Below, one piece after another: positions 1 to 9,235 of a DNA stretch of 64,000 nt. This stretch comes from Lachnospiraceae bacterium (GTDB lineage Bacteria > Bacillota > Clostridia > Lachnospirales > Lachnospiraceae). The stretch spans positions 102,119 to 166,118 of the forward strand of contig JAFZUW010000070.1 of assembly GCA_017618195.1 (NCBI GenBank), written 5' to 3'. Numbering within the stretch: the first letter of the stretch is position 1; every line of letters starts with the position of its first letter. The notes beneath the pieces were generated by a model. It was not told the DNA's origin and ran no database searches. It worked only from the letters and a program-made list of their open reading frames with translations. Position numbers and translations under genes: made by a program.

Positions 1-2
1 AA

Positions 3-230
3 CTCGGTCTCCCGGAAGCCTGGAGCTCCGATTCGATCGTCCGTTTCCGAAATGTCCGCAAATCGGTCCGGCTTGAAAAGAATCCGCAGTGTGCGGCATG
101 TCCGAATTTCGAAGAATGCGGTATGGGATGCCGCGCTTACGCATTGACCGAAACGGGATCCATTGACAGCCGGGATCCCGATCTGTGCGACATCTTTACC
201 AATAACCGGAGGAATGCTTTCCATGAGTGA
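3..230 (+). CDS. Radical SAM/SPASM enzyme, C-terminal end only
   Basis: The reading frame enters from the left edge and ends at TGA 228-230, so only the last 75 residues are visible. They contain a C-x2-C-x5-C-x3-C cluster (CAACPNFEECGMGC) of the type that ligates the auxiliary iron-sulfur cluster in SPASM domains, followed by a further Cys near the end. The frame overlaps the YcaO gene by 8 bases, so the two are almost certainly co-transcribed and translationally coupled. The radical SAM core itself lies outside the window, so substrate and chemistry cannot be read. A maturase for the nearby Nif11-type peptides is inferred from position. Confidence 0.75.
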   Translation, partial: LGLPEAWSSDSIVRFRNVRKSVRLEKNPQCAACPNFEECGMGCRAYALTETGSIDSRDPDLCDIFTNNRRNAFHE

Positions 231-2031
231 GAACAACAATCGTCCTTATAAATGCGCCGATCCGCTTTCCACCATTAACCGCGTGCGGCAGGCGCTGGAG
301 CGGTGCGGTCTTTTTACCATCGAAAAAGGCTTTTACCATCCGTCCGCCAATGTTGCCTGTTCCCGCGTGATGCTCGGCGATGAGGAACTGCTTTCCTTCG
401 GTGTCGGCACAAACGGCAAAGGGATGAATATGCGGTACGCGCTCGCAAGCGCATACGGCGAGTTCCTGGAACGGCTTCAAAACGGAATGCTTTTCCCGAA
501 CCGCCAGCTGCAGTTTTCCCCGAACGGACTGTTCCGCTTCGGACCGGACGAGATTCTATGCACGCCGGAGGAAACCGTCGCGGAGTGCGGCGACATCGTG
601 CGTGAAATCTTCAACCTTTCAACGGATGCGGATGCCCTGAATCTGTTAAAGCAGGCGTTCGGAGATAAGCGTGTGCTCTGCGCCCCATTTGCCGACATAA
701 CCGGAGGATGTGTCCGCAACGTTCCGATCAAGCTGTTTTACAACACAAGCGGCACCAACGGCATGTGCGCCGGCAATACGCCCTTGGAAGCGATCGTTCA
801 CGGCATAAGCGAGATTGCGGAGCGCTTTGCCATGCGTGAAATCTACATGGAACGCATTACTCCCCCGATTGTCCCGCCGGAATGCTTCGAAGGTACCGTC
901 ATCCATTACCGTCTCGAAGCGATGCGGCCGCTCGGCTACCGTTATGAAATCCGCGACTGCTCGCTCGGAATCGGCCTGCCGGTGATCGGGCTCCTTCTCT
1001 TCAATGAAAAGGGGGAGCACACCTTCCACCTCGGAGCAGATCCTCGTGCGCATGTCGCTCTTGAGCGCTGCCTGACCGAAATTTTCCAGGGAAGCGAGGA
1101 GGATATCGCCGAGCGTTTTACGGCCGAAACGCTTCCTTACCCGGAAACCAAAACGGAGAAGAATCTCTATTGCCGCCAGTTCAGCGACTCCACGATCCGC
1201 GGAACCGGTCTGTGGCCTTCAAGCCTGTTGAACGAGCAGCCGTCCTATCCTTTCGAAGGGCTTTTCCCCGCCGGAAACAGCGACGAGGAGGACTTTTCCC
1301 TGCTGTCGTCCCGCCTTGCGGAGCTCGGGTACCGGCTCTTTATCCGCGACTGCTCCTATCTTGATTTCCCGGCGTATTTTGTTTATATCCCGCGTATGAG
1401 CGATCTCGATTTCATTTACGACGACGGCGGCGATTTTATCCGCGCCATGCGCCTTGTCGGGATGCAGCGGACCTTCATCGGCCCGAGAAGCGCGTCTGAA
1501 AAAGATCGCCGCACCTTCGCCGAATGTCTTGACCGATATCTTCGGGAAAATGTGTCCGCTCCGGTCAATCCGGTTCAGTTCTTCCTTTTGAACAGTTCTC
1601 CGTCCATGTGCGATGCGGATCCGTATCTGATTACGGCTTTGTTCACGGGAACCGGCGGTGATCCCGGACTCGCTTCCGAGTACATGGAACAGCACCTTAA
1701 GAACAGCCCCGCAGCCGTACAGAACCGCAAGCTTTGTACCGCGCTTGCATTTTACTGGCACGAAAAGGCGCGCGGCGCCGAAGACGGCACGCTTCGCGAA
1801 CTGCTCAGCCGGATGTTCGATCAAAAAACCGTGGACATTTGCTTTGCCCACGGTCTCAATCCCGGATTATTCGATTATTTTCTGTGGCCGGAATGTTTCC
1901 GCTGCGGCCAATGTCTGCGGCGTTCCACCTGCATGTATGACCGGCTCGTTGAAATCCTTACGCCGATTCAGCAGATATACCGGGAGCACACTCCGGATCA
2001 GGAAGCGCTTCTGTCACTGCTTACTTTTTGA
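223..2031 (+). CDS. YcaO-family protein, probable RiPP backbone-modifying ATPase
   Basis: This 602-residue protein shows both YcaO nucleotide-site signatures: a GxGKG stretch at 62-67 followed by GEFLER at 79-84, and SEIAER at 196-201 after a GNTPLEA turn. YcaO enzymes use ATP to activate peptide amides, making azolines, thioamides or amidines. There is no C-terminal PxPxP tail as in azoline-forming members. Instead, a long C-terminal region ends with C-x2-C-x2-C-x5-C (558-570), giving an overall length like the E. coli YcaO subgroup. The ATG at 223 is preferred because GGAGG lies 10 bases upstream; two upstream in-frame ATGs are badly spaced. Action on the nearby Nif11 precursors is inferred from position, and a role in ribosomal protein S12 modification, as for E. 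coli YcaO, is the alternative. Confidence 0.85.
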   Translation: MSENNNRPYKCADPLSTINRVRQALERCGLFTIEKGFYHPSANVACSRVMLGDEELLSFGVGTNGKGMNMRYALASAYGEFLERLQNGMLFPNRQLQFSPNGLFRFGPDEILCTPEETVAECGDIVREIFNLSTDADALNLLKQAFGDKRVLCAPFADITGGCVRNVPIKLFYNTSGTNGMCAGNTPLEAIVHGISEIAERFAMREIYMERITPPIVPPECFEGTVIHYRLEAMRPLGYRYEIRDCSLGIGLPVIGLLLFNEKGEHTFHLGADPRAHVALERCLTEIFQGSEEDIAERFTAETLPYPETKTEKNLYCRQFSDSTIRGTGLWPSSLLNEQPSYPFEGLFPAGNSDEEDFSLLSSRLAELGYRLFIRDCSYLDFPAYFVYIPRMSDLDFIYDDGGDFIRAMRLVGMQRTFIGPRSASEKDRRTFAECLDRYLRENVSAPVNPVQFFLLNSSPSMCDADPYLITALFTGTGGDPGLASEYMEQHLKNSPAAVQNRKLCTALAFYWHEKARGAEDGTLRELLSRMFDQKTVDICFAHGLNPGLFDYFLWPECFRCGQCLRRSTCMYDRLVEILTPIQQIYREHTPDQEALLSLLTF

Positions 2032-2111
2032 TGCACCCGGAAGCGGGGCGAACCGTTCGTGAGTCACCGCTTACCGTCTGATTCATTCGGAAGTCGGGCG
2101 ATCAGTTCGCG
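2013..2111. repeat. Imperfect direct repeat at the ycaO 3' end
   Basis: Bases 2013-2061 and 2063-2111 align without gaps at an offset of exactly 50, with 37 of 49 identical. Copy one contains the YcaO stop codon TGA; copy two keeps an aligned TGA and doubles as the C-terminal coding end of the convergent methyltransferase gene. Three other genes in this window show the same arrangement. Confidence 0.7.
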
Positions 2112-2606
2112 GAACCGTAACGGGGTGTCCTTGTCCGCACGCCTGAGAAAGCCGGAACCGCGGACAAATTTCGGAAGTTCCTCATAATCGAGGATTCTTT
2201 CCGCGGTCATCATGCCGGAAGCGGAAAAACAGTGCTTCAGGCGCTCACAGCTGATCAGCATCGCCGTATTTCCGTTGTCGGACCAGATCTCCGAATAGAG
2301 CGCAAAGCATCCGCCTTCGTTAAGAAGGCCGCGAATCCTTTCGGCAAATGCATCCTCTTTGAGGATCAGCATCGGCGGAGCCGGAAAAACAGAATAGATA
2401 ACATCATATCCCCCTCCCATATCTCCATACAAACTGTCCTGCAGGAAAGAAACATTATGCCTGCAGGACAGTTTCTTTTTTGCGTCCTCGATACATTCCC
2501 GCGAAGGTTCCAACCCGACGATTTCCGACTTGTCATCATCAAATGCCGCGATTTCTTCGCCTCTTCCGCAGCCGATGAAAAGGATCCTGGCCTTTGTTTC
2601 CGTCAT
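2064..2606 (-). CDS. Small class I SAM-dependent methyltransferase
   Basis: A 180-residue protein with a glycine-rich motif I (ILFIGCGRGEEIAAF) near the N terminus and an acidic motif II (GLEPSRE), which is the class I S-adenosylmethionine fold. It is short for the family, with no obvious extra substrate domain. GGAGG sits about 8 bases before the ATG at 2606. The gene lies downstream of the two Nif11-type precursors, beyond an intrinsic terminator, and converges on the YcaO gene with 32 bases between stop codons. It may methylate the peptide product or be unrelated; the sequence does not decide. Its last codons fall in the second copy of a direct repeat derived from the ycaO end. Confidence 0.75.
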   Translation of the reverse strand: MTETKARILFIGCGRGEEIAAFDDDKSEIVGLEPSRECIEDAKKKLSCRHNVSFLQDSLYGDMGGGYDVIYSVFPAPPMLILKEDAFAERIRGLLNEGGCFALYSEIWSDNGNTAMLISCERLKHCFSASGMMTAERILDYEELPKFVRGSGFLRRADKDTPLRFRELIARLPNESDGKR

Positions 2607-2623
2607 ATGTCATCCTCCGATTT

Positions 2624-2674
2624 ATGAAACAAAGCGCCCGAGAACCGGGCGTATAAACCGGGTTCTCGGGTGCT
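2624..2674 (-). terminator. Intrinsic terminator after the Nif11 precursor genes
   Basis: AGCACCCGAGAACC pairs with GGTTCTCGGGCGCT (14 base pairs with one G-U), separated by a GC-rich loop and followed on the minus strand by TTTGTTTC. It lies between precursor B and the small methyltransferase gene and should end or attenuate the precursor transcript. Confidence 0.8.
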
Positions 2675-2712
2675 GAATGCTTCCTTTTGAGCGTGCTTCG
2701 TCCGTTCAAAAA

Positions 2713-3033
2713 CTAGCGCTGCTTGCCGAGATAGTGGCCGAGGAAGGTACCGCAGATTTCGGTACAAACCTTTGTACAGCCGGGCTTGGGTTCGGGGCAG
2801 TCACCGTTTCTTGCTCCGGAAATCTGCTCCAGCTCTTCTGCGGAAAGGTTTGCCTGCTCCGTATAGAACTTTTTGAAATCGTCAACGGATACGTCAAAGC
2901 CGTTCTCCTTCGCGATCTCAACAACCTTCTCGGCAACGCTCAACGGCGCGCCTTTGATCCCCATAACCTTCTCCTTCAGGGCATCGTCTTCCATAACCTT
3001 TTTGTAGAATGCTTCTACCTGCTGAATTGCCAT
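2713..3033 (-). CDS. Nif11-type RiPP precursor peptide B
   Basis: A 106-residue peptide. Residues 1 to about 72 match the Nif11-like leader family: an amphipathic start (MAIQQVEAFYKKVMEDD), a central GFDVSVDDF segment and the ending LSAEELEQISGA. The putative core of about 32 residues begins RNGDCPEP and carries four Cys with spacing C-x6-C-x3-C-x3-C, then the tail GTFLGHYLGKQR. The double-glycine cleavage motif of its sister is Gly-Ala here. Start at 3033 is set by AAAGGAG upstream and by alignment to precursor A. It is the last gene before the terminator. Being a modified, secreted natural product is inferred from family and neighbours; the installed chemistry is unknown. Confidence 0.88.
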   Translation of the reverse strand: MAIQQVEAFYKKVMEDDALKEKVMGIKGAPLSVAEKVVEIAKENGFDVSVDDFKKFYTEQANLSAEELEQISGARNGDCPEPKPGCTKVCTEICGTFLGHYLGKQR

Positions 3034-3069
3034 AGCCTTGTTTCTCCTTTGTTTTCTTTTTCCACAAAA

Positions 3070-3085
3070 ACGCATTTTCATGCGT
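3070..3085 (-). promoter_or_regulatory. Intercistronic hairpin ahead of precursor B
   Basis: On the minus strand ACGCAT-GAAA-ATGCGT forms a six-pair stem with a GNRA tetraloop, followed by TTTTTG. The same stem, with a GAAG loop, precedes precursor A. It could attenuate or stabilise the precursor transcript; a short terminator is also possible. Confidence 0.55.
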
Positions 3086-3112
3086 CAATGTTCTCTCTTG
3101 GCGCGCATCACA

Positions 3113-3436
3113 TCAGCGCTGTTTGCCGATATAATGTCCGAGGAAGGTACCGCAGATTTCAACACAACTCTTGGAGCAGTTCGGATCCTGATGGAGGCAC
3201 TCGCTCCAGCCTAACCCTCCGGAAACCTGTTCCATTTCTTCAGCGGACAAATCTGCCTGCTCCGTATAGTACTCTTTAAAGTCATCAACGGATACGTCAA
3301 AACCATTCTCCTTCGCGATTGCAACAACCTTCTCGGCAACGCTCAAAGGCGCGCCCTTGATACCCATAACCTTCTCCTTCAGGGCATCGTCTTCCATAAC
3401 CTTCTTGTAGAATGCTTCTACCTGCTGAACTGCCAT
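3113..3436 (-). CDS. Nif11-type RiPP precursor peptide A
   Basis: A 107-residue peptide nearly identical to precursor B across the leader, ending in a classic LSAEEMEQVSGG double-glycine site near residue 74. The core begins LGWSECLHQ, again with C-x6-C-x3-C-x3-C spacing and the conserved tail GTFLGHYIGKQR. Start at 3436 follows AAAGGAGGAACAATGTT. It sits 49 bases after the SPASM radical SAM gene and 79 bases before precursor B, so the three form one operon. Near-identity in leader, ribosome site and upstream hairpin shows a recent tandem duplication, after which only the middle of the core diverged. No dedicated protease or exporter gene is visible in the window. Confidence 0.9.
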   Translation of the reverse strand: MAVQQVEAFYKKVMEDDALKEKVMGIKGAPLSVAEKVVAIAKENGFDVSVDDFKEYYTEQADLSAEEMEQVSGGLGWSECLHQDPNCSKSCVEICGTFLGHYIGKQR

Positions 3437-3477
3437 AACATTGTTCCTCCTTTGCCTTTTCGTTTTTCTATACTGCA

Positions 3478-3493
3478 ACGCATCTTCATGCGT
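3478..3493 (-). promoter_or_regulatory. Intercistronic hairpin ahead of precursor A
   Basis: ACGCAT-GAAG-ATGCGT on the minus strand, a six-pair stem that spans the stop codon of the upstream radical SAM gene. It matches the hairpin ahead of precursor B, so the duplicated unit included this element. There is no U-run here, so termination is unlikely; a processing or stability role is inferred. Confidence 0.5.
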
Positions 3494-4865
3494 CAGGTTC
3501 TTTCGTATACTTCTTAACCAATTCGTTCAAACGGTCAGAGAAACCTCCGAAGAAATATGCGCACCGCATCGGATCGGTTCCGCACAAGTCACCGGACAGG
3601 CCGTACGCCAGCGCCCGGCACCCGCCGCAGCAGGCATCCCGGTACGGGCATTCGCGGCACTTTGCATTGACGCGGTAGATGTCTTCCAGTTTCAAAAGCG
3701 TCCAATCCGTCAATTTGGATTCGGAGAGAATCTTTTGTAAAGGGTCCTTCTTAACATTCCCCATACTGATTCCCTTCATCATGAGGAAGCCCGAAACCGG
3801 CATGCACGGAGCCGCCTCTCCCGACGCGCCGATGAAGAAATTATCATGTGCATCCTGACATGCAGTCCATTTGCCGCTGCACGGCCCGGTATTATGCATG
3901 GGCCGGATCAGAATATGCCCCTCTTGGTAAGTGTATTGCAGCATCCGCCACACACGAAAGTTGAGCGTTCCGCCCTCTGCCGCATAGCGTTCCGTCAATT
4001 TCAATCCGGCATCATAATACTCTTCAAACGTAAGCGTCTGATCAAGATACTGCTCTGCCCATCTCGGTGCTTCGCTTGCACGCATGAACCGCATGGAACT
4101 GATTCCGCGGGTTTCAAAATACTTGAGCGTGTCCCACATCCTGTCCGTGTTTCCGCGGTATACGCACATCTGTACCGACACGTCAAAACCCGCACCGACG
4201 ATGCGGTCAATCTGATCAAGCGTCTTCTGCTCGATTCCTTCGGCATTCCTAAGCCAGTCATGGGTTCCCAATCCGTCAAAGCTGACGGTGAAAAGCGGGT
4301 CAACCTTCAGTTCCTTTAAACGTTTGAGAAACGTATCGGTGACCAGCAGTCCGTTTGTTACAATTCTTCCAATCTTTATATCGCTGCGGGAAAGTTCTTC
4401 AATAATCTTATCAAGTTCGGGATGCATCAGCGGTTCGCCGCCCGTCAGGTCAACTTCATGAACGCCGCACGCCTTCAGCTCGCCGATCAGCTTCTTCGCT
4501 TCTTCCAAGGTGAAGCGGTCGGCGGTACGGTTTGCATCCTTTGCGGCAAAACAGTGCCGGCAGTTCAGATTGCAGGCCGAGGTTACCGCCCAGGTCACAG
4601 TACGGAAATAACGGTTGTCATAATAGACATAGCGCTGTGATTCCGAAACGGGAATGGGTTCCGGAGAGCCTTTCAGAATATTAAGGCTGCATAACCGTTT
4701 AATCGAATCGGTCAGCGGCATATCCGTTGAACCGTCACACGTCCCGATTAAATCGGCATCATCTTTGGACAGAACACTGAGCGAGCCGACAACCCGGTGA
4801 TACAACAGATACGGAAGTCCGCGGTAGCCGCATATCCTGTAATCCGGATTTAATGCATAAAACAA
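3486..4865 (-). CDS. Radical SAM/SPASM peptide maturase
   Basis: A 459-residue enzyme. Residues 1-80 look like a small winged-helix, PqqD-like peptide-recognition region (inferred). The radical SAM motif CNLNCRHC (C98, C102, C105) comes next, with TGGEPLMHPEL typical of the fold. A C-terminal SPASM cluster C-x2-C-x5-CC-x2-C lies at 403-416 with further Cys after it. Such enzymes form thioether or carbon-carbon links, or epimerise residues, in precursor peptides. Translation most likely begins at the rare TTG at 4865, because GGAGGG is 7 bases upstream and the next in-frame ATG is near residue 49. It is promoter-proximal to the two Nif11 precursors, which are its likely substrates. Confidence 0.88.
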   Translation of the reverse strand: MFYALNPDYRICGYRGLPYLLYHRVVGSLSVLSKDDADLIGTCDGSTDMPLTDSIKRLCSLNILKGSPEPIPVSESQRYVYYDNRYFRTVTWAVTSACNLNCRHCFAAKDANRTADRFTLEEAKKLIGELKACGVHEVDLTGGEPLMHPELDKIIEELSRSDIKIGRIVTNGLLVTDTFLKRLKELKVDPLFTVSFDGLGTHDWLRNAEGIEQKTLDQIDRIVGAGFDVSVQMCVYRGNTDRMWDTLKYFETRGISSMRFMRASEAPRWAEQYLDQTLTFEEYYDAGLKLTERYAAEGGTLNFRVWRMLQYTYQEGHILIRPMHNTGPCSGKWTACQDAHDNFFIGASGEAAPCMPVSGFLMMKGISMGNVKKDPLQKILSESKLTDWTLLKLEDIYRVNAKCRECPYRDACCGGCRALAYGLSGDLCGTDPMRCAYFFGGFSDRLNELVKKYTKEPDA

Positions 4866-4913
4866 GGCTGGTCCCTCCGTCGGTTTTAGAATTTTAAATA
4901 TCTTAATATGAAA

Positions 4914-4942
4914 ATTTTAACATTGAAAATTTCATAAGTCAA
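4914..4942 (-). promoter_or_regulatory. Promoter of the radical SAM-Nif11 operon
   Basis: On the minus strand TTGACT (4937-4942) and TAAAAT (4914-4919) are separated by 17 bases, a good sigma-A match, about 50 bases before the TTG start at 4865. Confidence 0.75.
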
Positions 4943-5446: not shown

Positions 5447-6700
5447 TCACAGCGTAATCTCCTTCGGAAAAGCCTCTTTCCGCATAATGCCCCACATCTT
5501 GTCGATATAGGCAAGCGTATAGAAGTTCTCATAGTAATGATAATAGAATGCTCCCTTCAGCGTCATCACGTGGACTCCGCCGCGCTTCTTCGTAAAGCCG
5601 AACAGCTGCGCCGCCTTGAGCTCAAATCCGTACATTTTCTTAAGCGGAACACCGAAGAACCGCTCGAACGCCTCCGGATCCACCTCGGTACTGTACGCGG
5701 TCCAGAACAGATAGTATACCATGCGCTGTCTTCGCGTAAACCGAAGCGTAAGCGATGTCGGAAGCGTCTCCTGCAGGATTCTTTCGCAATATGCGTCCAC
5801 GGAAAATGTGTTGATCTTAAACCGGTCTTTCAACAGCGTCGTGGCCGAACACCCGAAGCCGAGGAAATTGTCTCTTGTCATCGACGAATACTTCGCCTGC
5901 TCTTCGCTTGAAAAAGTCCAGATCGTGCTCCGCTTATACCCCTTCCTCGCGCAGTAATCCGTAATGCTGTCAAGAAGAAGCCGTTTCTCTTTCTTGGGCA
6001 TCGCCTTTACGGGACTCTTTGTAAACGTAAAATCGATAAACGGATAGATCGCGACATGGTTCGCCCCGATACGGAACGCTTCGTCGACATCCGATTTGAG
6101 GTCTTCAAACGTCTGTCCCGGCAGGGCAAAGATGAAATCCATCGAAACCGTTTCGAAAGGCACTTGCGAAAGCGCTTCTCTGAGCTGCTCCGGATTGACT
6201 GCCGCGCGTCCGAGGATGCTCTGGTATTTGCCGAGAAATGACTGGATCCCGATGCTGATTTTCGTCACGCCGGCATCCTTCAGCTTCCGGAGCACATCCG
6301 GCTTCACATTGTCCGGATGCAGCTCTAAACCGATGCCTTCGGTAATCGTAAAATACTCGTTCATTGCCGCGATGATCTCTTCGAGGCGGTCTGCTGCCAG
6401 CGCAGGCGTTCCGCCGCCGAAATAAAGGCTCGTGACCGTCTTCTTTCCGGGGTAAGTGCTTCCGACCATATGAATCTCGCGAAGGAGCGCGTCGATATAG
6501 CGGTCGCACGTCTCACGGTCATACTTCACCTTGCAGTACGGACAGAAATTGCAGATGCTTTTGCAGAACGGAATATGTACGTAAAGTCCGAGGTTTTCAC
6601 AGTCGCCGTACGGAAGCACCTCGTCATATTCGTTTCTAAAACGGAACGGCTTAAACGATCTCGTAAGCCACATTCTTGTCAAGTTTGTAATGATGCTCAT
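5447..6700 (-). CDS. HemN/HemW-like radical SAM protein
   Basis: 417 residues with CKSICNFCPYC at 46-56, the C-x3-C-x2-C triad plus the extra Cys typical of the coproporphyrinogen dehydrogenase and HemW superfamily, then GGGTPAL and the conserved HPDNV strand. The family includes true HemN enzymes, haem chaperones and radical methylases or cyclopropanases. This member ends with a long C-terminal HemN-type winged region. It starts 8 bases after the preceding radical SAM gene with AGGAGC upstream, so they form an operon. Haem biosynthesis is not supported by neighbours; the substrate is unknown. Confidence 0.82.
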   Translation of the reverse strand: MSIITNLTRMWLTRSFKPFRFRNEYDEVLPYGDCENLGLYVHIPFCKSICNFCPYCKVKYDRETCDRYIDALLREIHMVGSTYPGKKTVTSLYFGGGTPALAADRLEEIIAAMNEYFTITEGIGLELHPDNVKPDVLRKLKDAGVTKISIGIQSFLGKYQSILGRAAVNPEQLREALSQVPFETVSMDFIFALPGQTFEDLKSDVDEAFRIGANHVAIYPFIDFTFTKSPVKAMPKKEKRLLLDSITDYCARKGYKRSTIWTFSSEEQAKYSSMTRDNFLGFGCSATTLLKDRFKINTFSVDAYCERILQETLPTSLTLRFTRRQRMVYYLFWTAYSTEVDPEAFERFFGVPLKKMYGFELKAAQLFGFTKKRGGVHVMTLKGAFYYHYYENFYTLAYIDKMWGIMRKEAFPKEITL

Positions 6701-6708
6701 AACCGCTC

Positions 6709-7611
6709 CTAAATATACTTCAGATATGTTCTGAGCATCTCGCAGATGATCTTCGGATTGCCCTTAAATAACAGCGTATATTCCGCCACAAAGAAATATC
6801 CGCATTCTTCGCAAAGCCCCGGCACGTCGATGCAGCGACCGCATACGGATATTTTGCCGTTCTCGATTACGACGCATTGGTGGCAGGGAGTCGGGAAGCG
6901 GTTTTCAATCAGATACGGAAAGGCGCTCTTCAGGTTAAATACGGGCACCTTTTCCTTCATCATCTGTTTAATGACTTCGCAGCATTCGCGCTTTTCTTCC
7001 TTCGAAAGCGCAAGCTCACGGGTATCGGGGTACGGCGTATGGAAGTTAAAGGAGACCGCGCGCACATTTGCCGTATCCCTTGCAAGACGGCACACGTCGG
7101 CGACCGCGTCCTTGTTGATCTGATTGATCGCCATATAAAAGCAGATGTTGTCCGACGTCGCGTTCTTGATGTTCTCCATGATCGTGTCGTACGTGTCGCC
7201 GCGCACCGCGTTGTGGCGTTCGCGGTCGCCGTCCAGGCTTAACAGGATCAGGTCCGCTTCCGGCAGATCTATCGGAAAAGTCCCGTTGGTTACGACGTTC
7301 ACGATCAGGAATCCCATCTGCTTCGCTTCGCGGACAAGGTCGCGGATGGTCTTCTCGCCGTCCCGCCAAAGAAATGTCTCGCCGCCGCAGAAGAACAGAA
7401 TCCTGACTCCCATATCGTAAAGCGTCTTCATCTCGCCCATAATCTGTGCGTACGGATGCATGACGGCCGTAATGTTGTTAACCGAGCAGTGTCTGCATTT
7501 TAAATTGCACCGATCCGTAACAATGACCGTGCCGAGAATCGGGTCCTTCTTCCGGAACAGGATCGTCTTGATCCCGAATCCGGCAAACCGCAAGAACGAT
7601 GTTACTTTCAT
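6709..7611 (-). CDS. Radical SAM protein with Cys-rich C terminus
   Basis: 300 residues, with CNLKCRHC (C35, C39, C42) near the N terminus and FCGGETFL as the SAM-binding GGE motif. The C terminus carries six Cys in three C-x2-C pairs (243/246, 257/260, 267/270), consistent with one or more auxiliary metal clusters. GGGGGAG precedes the ATG at 7611. It lies between the HemN-like enzyme and the methyltransferase-U32 fusion with short gaps, so all three probably serve one pathway. The arrangement looks like a conserved clostridial operon of unknown function, possibly independent of the adjacent RiPP genes. Confidence 0.82.
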   Translation of the reverse strand: MKVTSFLRFAGFGIKTILFRKKDPILGTVIVTDRCNLKCRHCSVNNITAVMHPYAQIMGEMKTLYDMGVRILFFCGGETFLWRDGEKTIRDLVREAKQMGFLIVNVVTNGTFPIDLPEADLILLSLDGDRERHNAVRGDTYDTIMENIKNATSDNICFYMAINQINKDAVADVCRLARDTANVRAVSFNFHTPYPDTRELALSKEEKRECCEVIKQMMKEKVPVFNLKSAFPYLIENRFPTPCHQCVVIENGKISVCGRCIDVPGLCEECGYFFVAEYTLLFKGNPKIICEMLRTYLKYI

Positions 7612-7633
7612 GTTTCTCCCCCTGTGACATTGA

Positions 7634-9235
7634 TCAGAATAAATCCAGCATGCTGTCCAGATATACCTCTTCGCGGATTTTCAGACGGTATTCCGGCTTC
7701 ACCATGTAGTATAAAAGCATCTCAAGGACAACCGCACTTCCGAGGCTGCGGCCCTCGATTTTAAACTCCCGGAACCCTGCCGGCAGATACGTATCCGCAA
7801 TATCCTCTGTCCCGATAAACCCGGGATTGGCCATTGCATCCGAGAAGCGGTATCCGCGCTCCGCCGTAGGCGATACGCACACATGATCCTCACAATCTTC
7901 GCCGAGGCTCTTGCGGCTTACGTTCTCATAGCAGTTCTTCCGGTCATAACAGCCGAACCAGCAGCATTCGTTACATAAAAACTCTACCTTGCGCTTCTGC
8001 TCATCACTTAATGCGTTCAGAACATTCCACGCTTTATTCAGCCGGAAATCCGGCACGACATAGCGGAACTCGTCACGGTTCAGTTCCGAAACGAACTGTC
8101 CCGGGTCCGTCAGCACCTTTGTCGTCGAAGACACGAAGCAGAATCCCGGATAATGCTTTTTGATATAATCAAGCAGCAGATCGGAATGAATCACGATGCC
8201 ATTTGCCGCCTCCGAATGCTCGAACATCGCGCAAAGTTCATTGCAGCGGCGGTCCGCCAGATGCTCCTTCGTAAGCAGAGAATTGCTGAACGTGAGGTGC
8301 GCCGGAATCCTGTATTCGTTCATAAGCGCAAGCACGTCGGATGCTTCCGCGTCCCCGAACCCGACACGCCCGCCGCCCCAGATGCAGTCTTTCGGAGCGC
8401 CGTAAATCGAGCCGATTTCGCACCAGTCATAGAAATACTCCCTATGCTCGCGGAAGATCGGCAGAAACGCCTTATAAAGATCGTAAAACTCAAATAAACC
8501 GGGCAGGTGATAATATGCCTTCATCCCCTCGGGGATGCACCGGCCACCCGGCTTTTGAAATTCCATGTACCAAAAGAGCGGGATGTCCTCATTGCCCGCG
8601 GAACCGTCATAAGCCTTCGGCTCATCGGCATGCACGAGTGTGAGCCCCGCTTCGGCCGCGGCATTCAGATAGAAAGAAAGCGGCCTGTGGTAGTGCGTTG
8701 TCGGTCCCCAGAAACGGTTTTCGGATTCGTGAGGGGTGATATAGGACGAAACAAGCTTGCCTGCCGTGCCGTCCTCACCCTTTACCCACGGACCGTTATA
8801 AAACGCAGGGTGCACGATCGAGCCGTAAAATGTTCCTCCGGGCTTCAATATCCTGCGGCATTCCGCCAAAATCCCGCCGACATTCTCCACATCCATCAGC
8901 ACCTGGTTGCAAAACACGATATCAAACGCCTCGTCCGGAAACGTCATCGGCTCCGTAATATCCATTACGGCAAATGTGACGCCCGGGTATTTCTTCTTCG
9001 CGAGTTCGATCATCGCCCGAGAGCCGTCCGCTCCGACGGCCTGCCCGCCGATCCGGTTGAAGTAATCGGTATACCGGCCGTAGCCGCATCCGAGGTCCAG
9101 AACATATTCGCCGTTAAGTTGTTTGAACCGTTCCCGAACGGCTTCCTCATTGGCATTGGCAAATGCCGAGCGTTCCTGCTCCGCGGCATACGATTCCGCC
9201 GCTTCGTTCCATTGTCCGATGACATGTTCACTCAT
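7634..9235 (-). CDS. Methyltransferase fused to a U32-like domain
   Basis: A 533-residue fusion. Residues 1 to about 230 are a class I methyltransferase (motif I VLDLGCGYGRYTDYF at 45-59; NQVLMDVE later). The rest resembles the TIM-barrel U32 family, with a Cys-rich segment (CNECCWFGCYDRKNC) and a conserved ending EMLLYYMVKPEYR. U32-like proteins such as RlhA, TrhP and UbiU bind iron-sulfur clusters and act in hydroxylation rather than proteolysis; the assignment here is by overall pattern and is tentative. It is the first gene of the operon leading to two radical SAM enzymes. GGAG lies 9-10 bases before the ATG. Confidence 0.65.
   Translation of the reverse strand: MSEHVIGQWNEAAESYAAEQERSAFANANEEAVRERFKQLNGEYVLDLGCGYGRYTDYFNRIGGQAVGADGSRAMIELAKKKYPGVTFAVMDITEPMTFPDEAFDIVFCNQVLMDVENVGGILAECRRILKPGGTFYGSIVHPAFYNGPWVKGEDGTAGKLVSSYITPHESENRFWGPTTHYHRPLSFYLNAAAEAGLTLVHADEPKAYDGSAGNEDIPLFWYMEFQKPGGRCIPEGMKAYYHLPGLFEFYDLYKAFLPIFREHREYFYDWCEIGSIYGAPKDCIWGGGRVGFGDAEASDVLALMNEYRIPAHLTFSNSLLTKEHLADRRCNELCAMFEHSEAANGIVIHSDLLLDYIKKHYPGFCFVSSTTKVLTDPGQFVSELNRDEFRYVVPDFRLNKAWNVLNALSDEQKRKVEFLCNECCWFGCYDRKNCYENVSRKSLGEDCEDHVCVSPTAERGYRFSDAMANPGFIGTEDIADTYLPAGFREFKIEGRSLGSAVVLEMLLYYMVKPEYRLKIREEVYLDSMLDLF

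Follow-up and report, generated by a model that had tools for sequence, protein, structure and literature searches.

The stretch of 64,000 bp analyzed here as a whole (the window; contig JAFZUW010000070.1, our coordinates C31:102119-166118) comes from the genome assembly of a gut bacterium of the Lachnospiraceae (GCA_017618195.1; 2.75 Mb, 82 contigs). At its left edge lies what is almost certainly a locus for a ribosomally synthesized and post-translationally modified peptide (RiPP), with two Nif11-led precursor genes, genes of radical S-adenosylmethionine (SAM) enzymes carrying a SPASM domain, and a YcaO gene. The gene set is more than a chance neighborhood because the scores pass curated cut-offs and the set recurs elsewhere. 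Judged by its genes, it very probably belongs to one family with the loci of five other genomes, and we incline to regard this family as new, namely, as a multi-SPASM relative of the itf-like pathways that combine a radical SAM enzyme (rSAM) with a YcaO protein. The original prediction of a Nif11-led RiPP locus with SPASM and YcaO enzymes was supported: every gene that it named was found in its place by open reading frames (ORFs) and curated profile cut-offs.

The left edge of the window falls inside the cluster; the assembly holds complete SPASM1–3, the rest of SPASM4 and a degenerate YcaO upstream (sequence record L003; L003 position = window position + 15,619). Once this upstream sequence was included, the two SPASM radical SAM enzymes of the original prediction became five. 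The predicted overlap of the end of a SPASM gene with the YcaO gene was present (window 1–230 and 223–2031, both on the plus strand). The genes of the locus are as follows:

L003:7826–9031, minus strand: major facilitator superfamily (MFS) transporter, between the MutS-like genes and SPASM1
L003:9437–10810, minus strand: SPASM1
L003:10920–11720, minus strand: 267-aa protein, degenerate second YcaO by alignment, without Pfam or NCBIfam match
L003:11876–13150, plus strand: SPASM2
L003:13143–14534, plus strand: SPASM3
L003:14521–15849, plus strand: SPASM4, 442 codons, 3' end at window 1–230; TIGR04085 28.1 bits, cut-off 27
Window 223–2031, plus strand: YcaO, 602 aa; Pfam YcaO 160 bits, cut-off 25.7
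Window 2064–2606, minus strand: SAM methyltransferase, 180 aa; Methyltransf_25 29.9 bits, a weak match (cut-off 27)
Window 2713–3033, minus strand: Nif11 precursor A, 106 aa; predicted core 2716–2811, after ..EQISGA
Window 3113–3436, minus strand: Nif11 precursor B, 107 aa; predicted core 3116–3214, after ..EQVSGG
Window 3486–4865, minus strand: SPASM5, 459 aa, TTG start; Radical_SAM 83.9 bits, SPASM 32.0 bits

The precursors, the YcaO and the SPASM domains exceeded the curated cut-offs, with the exception of the SPASM domain of SPASM2 (15.8 bits; Pfam cut-off 21.5). Precursors A and B scored 58 and 60 bits with TIGR03798 (cut-off 32.3), and the leader matched PF07862 with 47 bits (cut-off 23.8). 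At an E-value of 0.001, two Nif11 genes and one YcaO were found in the genome, and no others of either. The leader ends with Gly-Ala in precursor A and Gly-Gly in precursor B, and most of the C-terminal core is common to the two. The predicted C-x6-C-x3-C-x3-C core was read in both; its spacing proved peculiar to this genome, the relatives having three or five core cysteines.

These relatives were found by scanning genome contigs with the YcaO alignment A1; the best 80 matches gave 77 loci, from which records of the window's own genome were possibly left out. A precursor with a CGxFLG core was encoded in five of the 77 listed loci and in none of the 72 others. The five belong to Candidatus Limiplasma pullicola (L027), an uncultured member of Eubacteriales (L028), Candidatus Pullichristensenella excrementigallinarum (L029), Clostridia bacterium INTA.AUR.031 (L030), and Candidatus Fimadaptatus faecigallinarum (L033). 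Their YcaOs are 34–40% identical to that of the window and have the best five E-values listed (2e-123 to 1e-108); their precursors reach 44–55 bits with TIGR03798. Each relative has three SPASM genes of groups a, b and c followed by YcaO, the same order as SPASM2-SPASM3-SPASM4-YcaO; the window has one more group-c SPASM and one more precursor. Searches with a precursor profile, independent of YcaO, covered 391 genomes of the class and 397 of the family, the relatives' own family lying outside both sets, and the only full-length match among them came from the window's own genome. Weak matches (31–36 bits, mainly to the Nif11 leader) were found in two of the 391 and three of the 397 genomes besides it; we rejected them as members of the same family, the core being absent from the frames inspected (five of eight loci). 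Four of 300 sampled genomes of the family of L033 were positive, all four among the relatives already found.

In an alignment of seven precursors (A5; window A and B and the five relatives' records), the pattern C-x3-C-x-E-x-C-G-x-F-L-G-x3-G-x-Q was invariant in 7/7, the invariant core residues being C86, C90, E92, C94, G95, F97, L98, G99, G103, and Q105. The relatives' cores follow C-x3-C-x3-C-G-x-F-L-G-x-[YW]-x-G-[KR]-Q, and the cores end in GKQR or G[KR]Q, with neither an Ile-Thr-Phe end nor Trp-x-Ile. The window shares with the relatives 13–15 of 20 residues in the core end and 23–29 of 74 in the leader (Fisher p ~0.0006 for 15/20 against 23/74, the comparisons being non-independent). Between L027 and L029, the rate of nonsynonymous substitution (dN) over the last 21 codons was 0 and the synonymous rate (dS) ~1.1. 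For precursors A and B, dN/dS was ~0.24 overall, and of the core only the last 21 codons were tight (~0.20). In most antibiotic RiPPs, the leader is better conserved than the core end, so this pattern would be unusual for one of them. That distant bacteria have kept the core end suggests that the product has a defined function and is no drifting bacteriocin. On this ground, the product might be a fixed-function peptide (redox carrier, metal binder or signal) and not an antibiotic, and electron-carrier precursors of ribosomal origin with rSAM maturases have been proposed (available text of PMC3023750); we nevertheless hold this to be rather improbable, as the NHLM-like exporters of the relatives point to secretion and accessory products typically show a patchy spread like the one seen here (one of 22 genomes in the genus, four of 300 in the family of the relatives).

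All 15 aligned SPASM proteins (A3) share ten invariant cysteines. Three belong to the radical cluster and seven lie beyond it, the set to be expected of an enzyme with one radical and two auxiliary clusters. In a tree of 28 SPASM proteins, three groups were resolved, each with all five relatives and one member from the window, or two in the case of group c. SPASM2 falls in group a (97/95), SPASM3 in group b (99/97), and SPASM4 and SPASM1, which are not sisters, in group c (99/98), together with the relatives' third SPASM. Homologues of SPASM5, 35% identical to it, lie directly upstream of the exporter genes in three relatives (G703, G699, and G700). The PDB matches of the SPASM proteins include SkfB (6efn), PqqE, and 5wgg; we take the latter to be CteB, whose recognition (leader-binding) domain presumably sits where the first 85–100 residues of the SPASM proteins lie. 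By its length and position, this N-terminal domain may serve in leader recognition. None of the SPASM proteins reached an equivalog cut-off among the best 25 families for each. That these enzymes make cross-links through cysteine is about an even chance; Cys-derived thioethers are suggested because the core cysteines are fixed.

The YcaO of the window retains K10, E80, E83, R84, N185, E189, E197, E200, R201, and E286, aligned in order with K9, E75, E78, R79, N187, E191, E199, E202, R203, and E290 of Escherichia coli YcaO, which we take to be the ATP-binding site. Its C-terminal end carries a C-x2-C-x2-C-x5-C motif (sequence CFRCGQCLRRSTC), also present in the L030 YcaO ahead of its methyltransferase part; a loose four-Cys pattern of this kind was found in 73 of 87 related YcaO ORFs of at least 540 aa, that of L053 included. 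The best PDB match was E. coli YcaO (E 3e-32), followed by MJ1094 (E 1e-7). In a tree of 42 YcaOs (midpoint root, long branches, E. coli YcaO on one of them), the window and the relatives form one clade of 10 rows (100/99), nested in a clade of 19 rows (97/96) to which the itf-like L053 and Bacteroidota YcaOs, part of them linked to rSAM genes, also belong. E. coli YcaO stands outside the 19-row clade, and the YcaOs of L012 and L024 share its half of the tree.

A second YcaO accompanies the first in four relatives, L027, L028, L029 (where it is cut by the contig end), and L033, and in each of them it retains the ATP-site residues. None was seen in L030 within its 10.9-kb contig. In our locus, the 267-aa protein is 27% identical over 220 aa to its counterpart in L027 (E 8e-7, or 4e-5 against a larger set) and has lost the Glu and Arg residues aligned with the ATP site and both protein ends; by this alignment, it is a degenerate second YcaO.

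What the catalytic YcaO makes is judged here by kinship and precedent. One reading, that it installs a backbone thioamide in the manner of E. coli YcaO while the SPASM enzymes cross-link, is tenable though on balance unlikely. E. coli YcaO, its best PDB match, reportedly uses Na2S, Mg and ATP to thioamidate uL16 in an organism that encodes no TfuA (available part of PMC13063428), and the Nif11/rSAM-linked YcaOs of L012 and L024 lie on its side of the tree. The window YcaO, on the other hand, sits in the 19-row clade with L053, E. coli YcaO being outside it (given the midpoint root and its long branch); it has a four-Cys end that E. coli YcaO lacks, and it missed the NF040716 equivalog of uL16-thioamidating YcaOs (152.6 bits; cut-off 700). 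Another reading, suggested by the three invariant core cysteines, would have the YcaO form thiazolines, as in linear azol(in)e peptides. We regard it as very improbable: an E1-like partner or RiPP recognition element and an azoline dehydrogenase were absent among 17 sequences of 16 neighboring genes, no genome-wide search having been made, and a related YcaO pair of Robinsoniella lies beside Nif11-like precursors with Cys-free cores. Those precursors lie at L012:12747–14520, and their cores are rich in Ala and Gly; cyclodehydration of cysteine is impossible for them because they contain none. TfuA was likewise absent among the same 16 genes scanned, no genome-wide TfuA search having been made, and a lanthipeptide was rejected since no Lan enzyme occurred among the proteins scanned.

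A backbone amidine is weighed against a thioamide and other products, and the three seem close to equally probable, none likely taken singly. The amidine is placed slightly ahead of the thioamide because of the precedents of ItfB, the Bacteroidales rSAM and YcaO clusters and E. coli YcaO, as far as the available texts describe them; its odds were lowered a little because of the YcaO tree on rereading. Gene setting does not predict the YcaO branch, because L012 and L024 fall on the E. coli side, and kinship separates the two chemistries weakly.

The methyltransferase next to the YcaO gene is assigned to the pathway on the strength of L030, whose YcaO is fused to a homologue of it (BLAST, 30% over 159 aa, 9e-16), although the fused part itself scores 23.7 bits with Pfam, under the cut-off of 27. 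The original prediction had seen no exporter, and no full-length match to an NHLM-type exporter was found in the rest of the genome either; the relatives have it. A search of the window's own genome with TIGR03796 (NHLM peptidase-exporter, C39) gave at best 359.7 bits (cut-off 853.3), and no listed match begins before profile position 119 of 710. The ATP-binding cassette (ABC) gene ABC1 of L027 reaches 904.5 bits with the same profile, and the L030 HlyD 249 bits (cut-off 156). Similar ABC genes are encoded in L028, L029, and L033, so that NHLM-like exporter genes occur in all five relatives; ABC2 of the L033 genome is slightly under its cut-off (675 of 709 bits), and the 158-aa gene preceding ABC1 there matched no family. 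Near our locus, the only gene seen that might encode an exporter is the MFS gene, which is flanked by SPASM1 and the MutS-like genes.

The missing exporter and a second YcaO reduced to 267 aa, with its ATP-site residues gone, would suit a decaying remnant of the relatives' cluster that yields little or no product. This is unlikely in our view: five SPASM genes, the YcaO and two precursors are open, with the expected cysteines and ATP-site residues kept, the precursor pair shows the overall dN/dS given above, and the locus carries a group-c SPASM and a precursor beyond those of the relatives.

In the pathway that we propose, the Nif11 leader would be bound by the N-terminal domain of ~85–100 residues of the SPASM enzymes, which would act in turn on C-x3-C-x3-C, most likely forming Cys-derived thioether cross-links similar to those of ranthi- and sactipeptides. 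The YcaO would use ATP to activate a single backbone amide, probably one of the conserved GxYxG[KR]Q tail, an amidine being a little likelier as the outcome than a thioamide, and the methyltransferase would add a methyl group. The product would probably be a small, heavily modified peptide. In the relatives, cleavage after GG and export would both fall to the NHLM-type peptidase/ABC exporter.

Several findings weigh against this reading. The number of core cysteines varies (three in L030, four in the window, five in the others), and the comparison of precursor A with B gave a higher dN/dS for the entire predicted core (~0.54) than for the leader (~0.11), so that constraint on the core is the weaker of the two. 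The SPASM tree carries long-branch warnings, the grouping of SPASM5 with the SPASM proteins upstream of the relatives' exporters is weak (83/63), and no recognition domain was found in the N-terminal 85–100 residues of the SPASM proteins by Pfam or PDB profiles. The closest solved homologue of the YcaO, that of E. coli, makes a thioamide, and the YcaOs of L012 and L024, linked to Nif11 and rSAM genes as they are, stand on its side of the tree. With the exporter missing and the second YcaO degenerate, it is possible that the locus does not work in this genome. Finally, four of the five relatives are close kin (YcaO 85–89% identical) and count as one lineage; with L030 and the window, about three lineages stand behind the evidence. 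The original prediction named homologous loci without the YcaO and second SPASM genes as contrary evidence, and this point is answered in part, all five same-core records having three SPASM genes ahead of YcaO; here the SPASM genes and the core count, YcaO being present by construction since it was the query.

Beyond the family itself, one may suppose a class of RiPPs whose one conserved C-x3-C-x3-C-G-x-F-L-G-x-Y-x-G-K-Q core is worked on by a YcaO pair (here catalytic plus pseudo-YcaO) and by three to five SPASM paralogues with one position apiece, giving a nearly invariant fixed-function molecule with several radical cross-links and an amidine or thioamide. We offer this as a speculation with the odds clearly against it. 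In any case, the system is compact, with several SPASM paralogues and a YcaO near one short peptide, so that the division of labor can be addressed with one precursor, and the same precursor lets the question of amidine or thioamide be asked for the four-Cys branch of YcaO.

The cluster is probably an island acquired horizontally, as its distribution and gene order suggest. YcaO was encoded in one of 22 genomes of the genus (one of 13 among those at least 90% complete). In three congeners (L148, L149, and L150), a MutS-like pair lies 1.2–2.3 kb from a gene matching the C-terminal part of window 7634–9235, with no island gene in that interval; in the window genome, the MutS-like pair is left of the cluster. 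The gene order of L148 and L150 agrees with an insertion, two genes at 5447–7611 being unmatched there; in L149, these two genes are present and the MutS pair is on the opposite side of the block. A clean empty site was sought in these three congeners and obtained in none. One other SPASM-like gene (25% identical to SPASM4) occurs in L148 on the far side of its MutS pair, and the MFS gene is unmatched in all three. The G+C content is near-uniform, 55% and 51% in two parts of the cluster and 53–54% in the flanks.

The HemW-like, rSAM and methyltransferase genes at 5447–9235 were considered as cluster members and rejected: part of the last is found in 13 of the 22 genomes of the genus, the window's own included, and the first two with part of the third occur in congener L149 unaccompanied by island genes. 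The last of them (window 7634–9235, minus strand) encodes 533 aa, a methyltransferase (~1–232) joined to a domain (~236–533) for which the other genomes of the genus mostly have an ORF of its own. The KamC reactivase model also matches both of the adjoining MutS-domain proteins at L003:4656–7798 (539 and 508 aa), a pair that is kept in L148–L150.

Among the 77 listed YcaO loci, 28 have an rSAM gene, 11 a Nif11 gene and 8 both (by our own profiles, many loci being cut by contig ends). Nif11 genes were not found by BLAST with the window precursors in G062 and G131 (of four YcaO-positive genomes in the family search) or in G663, G426, G638, G425, and G587 (of seven in the class search), nor by profile in the contigs of G663 and G426 (L082 and L087). 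Within the window's own family, G179 (Robinsoniella) encodes Nif11-like genes with Cys-free cores, two YcaOs, one rSAM, a methyltransferase and an NHLM exporter. In G536 (L024), three SPASM-type genes, a YcaO, a B12-type radical SAM gene (by eye) and ABC exporters accompany two Nif11-like genes, which score 22.8 and 18.3 bits and so stay below the cut-off of 32.3. By these gene contents, the combination of Nif11, rSAM and YcaO is a recurring theme, of which the window's family is one well-defined branch.

Further loci were noted in the same material. L102 (Clostridia metagenome-assembled genome (MAG) RGIG9018) holds two YcaOs, two Nif11 precursors (53 and 45 bits, over the cut-off), three rSAM genes and pieces of an exporter. 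The gene order rSAM-rSAM-YcaO-rSAM, with no Nif11 gene, is common to six Bacteroidota loci (L039, L044, L045, L048, L049, and L055). The L029 genome encodes another Nif11 precursor (L124:3689–4033, 46 bits), which has a Cys-rich core and adjoins a lone SPASM gene (2049–3572). Downstream of the L028 cluster, from ~14000, many short repeats translated as VWGR/SSPRVWGR lie near CRISPR-associated-looking genes (by eye) and are probably an array of clustered regularly interspaced short palindromic repeats (CRISPR). L053:4565–10867, from a Bacilli MAG, is itf-like, with a YcaO, a 57-aa precursor ending in PWTITF, an rSAM and a peptidase-type ABC exporter (469 bits, under the NHLM cut-off); if the MAG label is right, the itf type occurs outside Bacteroidota.

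Among the open-access papers listed, neither titles nor abstract openings mention this core or this set of genes; an atlas of rSAM-modified RiPPs from 2022 may include some of the enzymes. Comparison with known systems places the locus as follows. Robinsoniella peoriensis (L012/L073) is similar in having Nif11-like precursors (one of four scanned over the TIGR03798 cut-off), two YcaOs, one SPASM/twitch-type rSAM, a methyltransferase and an NHLM exporter; it differs in its Cys-free, Ala/Gly-rich cores, a different rSAM, and YcaOs that are 28–30% identical and lie on the other side of the tree. E. coli YcaO, as far as its available description goes, has the same architecture and ATP site and no TfuA nearby, but its C terminus is without the four-Cys motif, its substrate is a folded ribosomal protein and no precursor gene lies nearby. 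The maturases of ranthi- and sactipeptides (CteB, SkfB) are likewise radical SAM/SPASM enzymes with two auxiliary-cluster Cys sets and act on Cys-bearing cores, whereas the window locus has several SPASM genes per precursor and a YcaO. With the Nif11-leader RiPPs (TIGR03798), the locus shares the leader family, the GG/GA end and, in the relatives, the NHLM-type exporter. The prochlorosins among them are matured by LanM (available text of PMC10783134); the maturases here are SPASM and YcaO proteins and the core end is conserved.

The closest parallel is the itf cluster of Bacteroides thetaiotaomicron (ItfA/B/D). The text available from PMC11002830 describes how ItfB, in which a YcaO is joined to an Fe-S-type domain, uses ammonium to install a backbone amidine, the SPASM/twitch rSAM beside it making a Trp-Ile link; rSAM and YcaO clusters of Bacteroidales are discussed likewise in that from PMC10352776. 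As far as itf is described there, both systems have a YcaO beside a SPASM/twitch-type rSAM (SPASM4 overlaps YcaO) and a C39-type exporter (in the window's relatives; none over the cut-off in the window genome). The Cys-rich C-terminal end of the window YcaO may correspond to the Fe-S domain described for ItfB; the four-Cys motif of the itf-like L053 YcaO resembles that of the window. Unlike itf, the window family has no Ile-Thr-Phe end or Trp-x-Ile; it has a Nif11 leader, a Cys-rich core, three to five SPASM genes, a second YcaO and a methyltransferase. Without an itf-type precursor and, among the neighboring genes scanned, azoline or TfuA partners, the window locus is, to judge from its gene content, one that works like an rSAM and YcaO RiPP pathway guided by a Nif11 leader.

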